Below are positions 3,693 to 39,325 of a DNA stretch of 64,000 nt, one piece after another. The notes under the pieces were generated by a model. It saw nothing but the letters and a program-made list of their open reading frames with translations. It was not told where the DNA came from and did not search any database. The stretch spans positions 2,175,001-2,239,000 of the forward strand of contig NZ_CP088273.1 in NCBI RefSeq assembly GCF_020731415.2. The letters run 5' to 3'. The position numbers and the translations under genes are program-made. Every line of letters begins with the position of its first letter. The first letter of the stretch is position 1. Source of the stretch: Phyllobacterium sp. T1293. Lineage in GTDB: Bacteria; Pseudomonadota; Alphaproteobacteria; Rhizobiales; Rhizobiaceae.

Positions 3693-4570
3693 ATGCTCGC
3701 CAGTTTTGACCACACAATCAGCCTGATCGCTCCGGCCAAGATCAATCTTGCACTGCATGTAACCGGCAGACGCGATGATGGCTATCACCTGCTTGACAGC
3801 CTTGTGGTCTTCGCCCGCTTCGGCGACAGGCTTGATGTAACGCAAGCAGCGGTGGATTCCTTCACCATATCAGGCCCTTACGGTGCTGATCTTCCCGGCG
3901 ATGAAAGCAATCTTGTGCTCAAGGCGCGTGATGCACTGCGCCGCCATTATCCCGAAAAGGCAACGCCCGTTGCCATTCATCTGGAAAAACATCTTCCCAT
4001 AGCATCCGGTATTGGCGGCGGCTCCAGTGACGCCGCAGCGGCCTTGCGCGCGCTGACCACCCTTTGGGGCATCGAGGCCAGCCTGACCGAATTGGCCGCG
4101 CTCGGCCTGCCGCTGGGGCGGATGTCCCTATGTGCCTGCATGGTGAAGCGCTGATCGCACGCGGCATTGGCGAAGATATCGAGCGGATCGCCGCCTTTCC
4201 GCGCCTCCCGGTGGTTCTGGTCAATAATGGCGTGACGGTTTCAACACCGCAGGTCTTTTCTGCGCTGAGCCGCCACGACAATCCTGCCCTTCCCGCCCTG
4301 CCTTTACGGATGGCTCCGGGCGATGTCTGCGCCTATCTCGGGCAAACCGATAATCATCTTTTCGCAGCAACACAAAAACTGGCTCCATCGATCAATGACA
4401 GCATGCAGGCATTGCGCGAAACCAATCCGCTGCTTGCGCGCATGTCCGGCTCAGGCGGCACCTGTTTTGCAATCTATGCCGATGATGAAACGGCGGAAGC
4501 GGCGGCAACCCGGTTGCGCCGAAACCAGCCCGATTGGTTTGTCATCGCCACCAGCACGGAAGGGAACTGA
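3693..4570 (+). pseudogene. ispE: 4-diphosphocytidyl-2-C-methyl-D-erythritol kinase, frameshifted
   Basis: GHMP-family kinase of the MEP isoprenoid pathway, phosphorylating CDP-methylerythritol. Reading from ATG 3693 gives [11 protein letters not shown] and the ATP-binding loop [18 protein letters not shown] (about residues 102-119), then near residue 142 the frame breaks and stops at 4154. The rest of the protein, from [12 protein letters not shown] through ARMSGSGGTCFA, continues in the -1 frame to the stop at 4570. Adding one G to the GGGG run at 4115-4118 restores one 292-residue protein of normal length. Because the pathway is essential in these bacteria, a sequencing or assembly error in the G run is as likely as a real mutation. 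Confidence 0.85.
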
Positions 4571-8232: not shown

Positions 8233-8700
8233 GCGATTGTTGTGCGCCCTTCGACAAGCTCAGGATGAGGGAGAGGGAGGGCTGCAAAGATAATCGCCGA
8301 CATTTCAGATCACAGGTGTTGCAGCGCAAAGGTTGCAGAATATAGCTCCCGACATCTCAATCCGCTCCGTCATCACCTCAACCCCCTCCGTCATCCTCGG
8401 GCTTGACCCGAGGACCCACGACAAAGGGGAAGGAAGGAACGACTACAATTTTTCGTGCTTCTCGATCATGGTCCTCGGGTCATCCTCGGGTTAAACCCGA
8501 GGACTGAGGATGAGGGAGAGGGAGGGGTTGCAGGGAGCCAAGTTCTGCAACCTTTTGCACTGCAATCTCTGCGACTAGCATTGCAGCCAACACTCTCCCT
8601 CATCCTGAGCCTGTCGAAGGGGCGACAATGGTCGTGCAACCCATCCATGTCCCTCATCCTGAGCCTGTCGAAGGGCGCATAAGTGATCTTGCAACCACGT
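8233..8700. repeat. Composite block of palindromic repeats
   Basis: Three copies of the arm CCTTCGACAAGCTCAGGATG or its near-inverse (8247-8270, 8594-8622, 8650-8677) and two copies of the self-complementary arm TCCTCGGGCTTGACCCGAGG (near 8393 and 8482) surround a core with GATAATCGCC and GTTGCAG. Arms of both kinds recur elsewhere in the window. Widespread extragenic palindromes of this sort are known in alphaproteobacteria. Confidence 0.75.
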
Positions 8701-39150: not shown

Positions 39151-39325
39151 GCGTGGTTCGTGGTTCGTGGTTCGACAAGCTCACCATAAGGGAGAGGGGT
39201 GCTGTAACGCTAATCGCAAAGGTTGCAGATCACAGAGGGCAGAATTTAGCTCCCTTTCATCATCCCTCTCCCTCATGGTGAGCTTGTCGAACCACGAACC
39301 ACGAACCGGCGGCATTCACCCCCCC
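39151..39325. repeat. Palindromic repeat element with 44-bp arms
   Basis: The arms at 39155-39198 and 39264-39307 are inverted copies over 44 bp with one mismatch (GGTTCGTGG, CGACAAGCTCACCAT and GGGAGAGGG are inside). Between them is a core with CGCTAATCGCAAAGG and GAATTTAGCTCCC that recurs in the other repeats. It lies after oxyR with no coding potential. Confidence 0.85.

Follow-up and report, generated by a model that had tools for sequence, protein, structure and literature searches.

A single base missing from a short G run splits ispE in the Phyllobacterium sp. T1293 assembly, most likely through a deletion error in the deposited sequence

The window, a stretch of 64,000 nucleotides of the Phyllobacterium sp. 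T1293 genome (C1:2175001-2239000 of an assembly of 5.07 Mb in four contigs), carries on its plus strand an ispE gene that begins with the ATG at 3693, ends at 4570, and is divided between two reading frames meeting at a run of four G (Table 1). Pfam places PF00288 in the N-terminal piece and PF08544 in the C-terminal piece; both domains are present, in different frames. An in-frame ATG at 4130, located by eye in the second frame, lies upstream of the stop codon of the first, and translation of the C-terminal piece could restart there. Against the IspE model NF011202, the N-terminal piece matches positions 8-144 with 192.1 bits and the C-terminal piece matches positions 136-292 with 167.9 bits. 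Both scores fall below the curated cut-off of 204 bits and no single protein passes it, whereas the intact IspE of Phyllobacterium sp. OV277 reaches 367.6 bits. In the OV277 protein, the N-terminal piece corresponds to residues 1-143 and the C-terminal piece to residues 141-292. Identity is 92% for each, neither contains an internal stop, and no residues are lost at the junction; judged from these alignments, the match is far beyond chance. The pN/pS ratios against OV277 are 0.17 and 0.24, although most of this divergence may predate any break. Compared with the IspE family (NF011202/TIGR00154; PF00288 plus PF08544), the T1293 pieces thus match in the right order, whereas the assembly has two frames where the family has one.

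DNA alignments with two relatives show the window to be one base shorter at the G run and otherwise free of gaps over 299 and 292 window bases; in both relatives, the G run is interrupted. The proposal of the sequence-only reading, that a single-base frameshift at the G run splits ispE, is therefore borne out by the frames themselves and by these alignments. Elsewhere in the window, a 20-base repeat motif (at most three mismatches) occurs at seven places, as against none in 100 shuffles; three copies fall within 8250-8672, in both orientations, and the others lie at 39272, 41952, 57600, and 57702.

Table 1 Parts of the split ispE (window positions) and sites of the other mid-gene breaks (C1 positions)
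Feature	Position	Strand	Remark
N-terminal ispE frame (GHMP_kinases_N)	3693..4154	+	IspE-like as far as the G run; out of frame from there to the stop at 4154
G run, site of frame loss	4115..4118	+	one base fewer than in two relatives
C-terminal ispE frame (GHMP_kinases_C)	4064..4570	+	IspE homology from about 4112 onward
smc	C1:2090472		one base missing vs G016, mid-gene
lysS	C1:2446355		one base missing vs G016, mid-gene
murJ	C1:2759998		one base missing vs G016, mid-gene
Usp gene	C1:2762795		one base missing vs G016, mid-gene
IlvD-like dehydratase gene	C1:2918678		one base missing vs G016, mid-gene

The OV277 IspE protein was searched against 39 genomes, comprising that of T1293, 19 others of the same genus, and 19 more distant ones. 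While T1293 yielded two pieces, each of the 19 congeners searched gave one unbroken, stop-free match, and neither the shifted frame nor the split was present in any of them. Among the more distant genomes, 18 of 19 had one match, and the two matches of the remaining genome (G036), on different contigs, probably reflect a contig break. The best named protein match to the N-terminal piece was that of OV277 (93%). In addition, a full-length protein of 292 residues, P0001, spans the two pieces with 99% identity to either and differs from the window IspE at four residues, as counted by eye in the alignment; it ranked first in separate protein searches with the N- and C-terminal pieces (among the best 120 of 7999 matches and the best 120 of 2279, respectively). 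At the DNA level, the relative G015 shares a mean identity of 93.65% with T1293 over 342 kb aligned. The sequence-only reading had suggested a comparison with near strains; because ispE is unbroken in 19/19 congeners and P0001 is full length, the break is, as far as seen, confined to T1293.

The same reading had also entertained a real loss compensated elsewhere, by a second ispE or by mevalonate genes, a suggestion that found no backing, as searches of the T1293 genome with TIGR00154, PF00288, and PF00368 gave no substitute. TIGR00154 returned only the two pieces. PF00288 matched ispE and one other GHMP-type gene (C2:56602), which TIGR00154 did not match. The stretch surrounding this gene is 76% identical in DNA to Phyllobacterium plasmids, where the annotation reads beta-ribofuranosylaminobenzene 5'-phosphate synthase family protein, and for that reason C2:56602 was not taken as a substitute. 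Likewise, PF00368 found no match in the genome for HMG-CoA reductase, the marker by which the mevalonate pathway was rejected as compensation. Of the MEP steps searched, dxs, ispF, ispG, and ispH are unbroken. Type I DXR was not found in the genome, but this does not make a second gap in the pathway, as it is filled by two unbroken genes with a DXR type II domain (DRL_cat) and equal scores, at C1:356079-356570 and C3:437043-437534. DXR type II is the subject of a description in PMC3847144, and the domain occurs at similar strength in 9 of the 11 congeners examined, with weaker or partial matches only in the other two (G009 and G010).

We compared 1.2 Mb of the same chromosome with the relative G016, scoring high-identity splits among 1033 ORFs with a match in each direction. 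Eleven of the 1033 G016 ORFs are split in T1293 and 5 of the 1033 T1293 ORFs are split in G016 (P = 0.21). Breaks beyond the first 50 residues number six in T1293 versus one among 1033 ORFs in the G016 control, counts that alone are not significant (Fisher P = 0.12). The six affect ispE, smc, lysS, murJ, the Usp gene, and the IlvD-like dehydratase gene, with a single base missing at each break; the sole control break, in a nucleoside-hydrolase gene, also lacks one base. MurJ and LysRS are essential; some bacteria can live without smc, and loss of the Usp or the IlvD-like dehydratase may be tolerated. Neither murJ nor smc has another strong match in the T1293 genome, and lysS, encoding a class I lysyl-tRNA synthetase, is cut near the C terminus, at about residue 519 of 567. 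According to PMC8546619, MurJ acts as the flippase that moves the precursor of the cell wall across the membrane.

Over the first 400 kb, 280 G015 ORFs are full in G016; T1293 has 270 of these at full length, 3 split, and 3 partial, and lacks 4. Two of the split ORFs are smc and ispE, and the third, a methyltransferase-like gene at C1:2000004, carries an 11-base deletion relative to both relatives and is possibly a real pseudogene. In the other direction, 302 T1293 ORFs full in G016 are represented in the G015 stretch by 278 full, 1 split (111 aa), 3 partial, and 20 absent, and G015 shows splits in 3 of 290 G016 ORFs full in T1293, these with a lower identity. Completeness is 96.39 for T1293 versus at least 97 in 15 of 19 congeners, a lower value that fits an assembly error, other causes being possible.

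Outside the count of six stand the methyltransferase-like gene and four candidates whose first piece ends at residue 30-49 (C1:1982591, 2605497, 2660735, and 2945563). At these four, a start codon follows the junction by 3 to 14 residues in the G016 ORF, and they were therefore taken as over-extended starts; in the control, four of the five G016 splits were dropped because their first piece likewise stops at residue 30-49. Three of the four dropped T1293 candidates carry an extra base, and including all four would make the pattern of one missing base weaker. Both G015 and G016 have C1:1982591 at full length, and it could be a further break. With looser rules, additional split ORFs, most of them of lower identity, appear in either direction, and one extra base is present in a 104-aa ORF at C1:2339134 of T1293.

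Single-base indels as a whole are no more frequent in the T1293 assembly than in G015: 14 are specific to T1293 over about 279 kb, and 20 to G015 over about 276 kb. Of the six gaps, three are found no more than three bases from a G/C run of at least four, a context shared by 3.6% of 20,000 random positions. Short G/C runs are prone to slippage mutation, and since real slippage mutations also favor such runs, the run context cannot separate an error from a mutation. For nanopore assemblies, PMC12007338 reports false deletions, mostly after four to five equal bases, with A/T runs affected at about double the frequency of G/C runs. The T1293 breaks resemble the gene-fragmenting deletion errors of long-read bacterial assemblies described there in that one base is missing in conserved genes and three of the six sites are at runs of four to five bases. 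However, they are much rarer than in the draft example given there, and the runs of at least four are of G/C rather than mainly A/T.

Taken from the sequence comparisons, the split in ispE is very probably a residual deletion error of the assembly. T1293 would then possess an ordinary, single-copy alphaproteobacterial ispE, encoding 4-diphosphocytidyl-2-C-methyl-D-erythritol kinase of the MEP pathway, and one base would have dropped out of its short G run, most likely in sequencing or consensus calling. The base is most likely missing only in the assembly and not in the strain, and in the living strain ispE is probably a single uninterrupted and functional gene. We favor a residual deletion error as the best explanation because the joint loss of IspE, MurJ, and LysRS is unlikely in a living cell; with counts that are small and not significant alone, the weight of this explanation rests on which genes are broken. 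Three options had been listed from the sequence alone. The homopolymer error gains from the 19 intact congeneric genes, from P0001, and from the breaks in murJ, lysS, and smc, whereas a compensated loss is left with no substitute and slippage is not needed.

Slippage would nevertheless offer a way for the gene to function if the one-base difference were real, and we consider it improbable that enough IspE is made by a ribosomal -1 slip on the G run, where a Gly codon is preceded by G, or by slippage of RNA polymerase. After a backward slip of one base, the zero-frame codons would keep pairing and reading would enter the C-terminal frame, and both pieces are otherwise conserved by the pN/pS ratios given above, perhaps mostly reflecting the time before the break. 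However, the G run is only four bases long and is interrupted in the two aligned relatives, the conservation of a programmed frameshift is not seen in any of the 19 congeners, and the breaks in murJ, lysS, and smc are left unexplained. That the strain lives on low IspE from such slippage, so that ispE, an essential gene, would exist in nature as a leaky frameshift allele, is very improbable; if it were true, something similar would be needed for murJ and lysS. We assign a comparably slim chance to a real mutation, carried by all or part of the sequenced culture and rescued by intact cells or by suppression, or else born in culture. Slippage in short G/C runs and the restriction of the ispE break to the T1293 genome would agree with such an origin, but it would require mutations in several core genes at the same time, no substitute was found, and IspE (yabH) stands on the essential list of Bacillus subtilis in PMC1914294.

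It is scarcely credible that IspE functions as a kinase assembled from two polypeptides, with the second translated from the ATG at 4130. Each piece does keep one GHMP domain and the ATG precedes the stop of the first frame, but the split is absent from all 19 congeners searched, and we know of no two-piece IspE. Gene decay of the fungal-endosymbiont type was also rejected, as the Phyllobacterium endobacterium of Esteya vermicola has, according to PMC9111515, a genome of about 3.96 Mb in 306 contigs, compared with 5.07 Mb in 4 contigs for T1293.

As a probable deletion error, the ispE break has little biological interest, but it merits a flag on this assembly. It also advises caution, in that the remaining core genes of an assembly should be consulted before one broken essential gene in it is interpreted. 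If the break were real, T1293 would be an example from nature of a strain that obtains an essential kinase solely through slippage.
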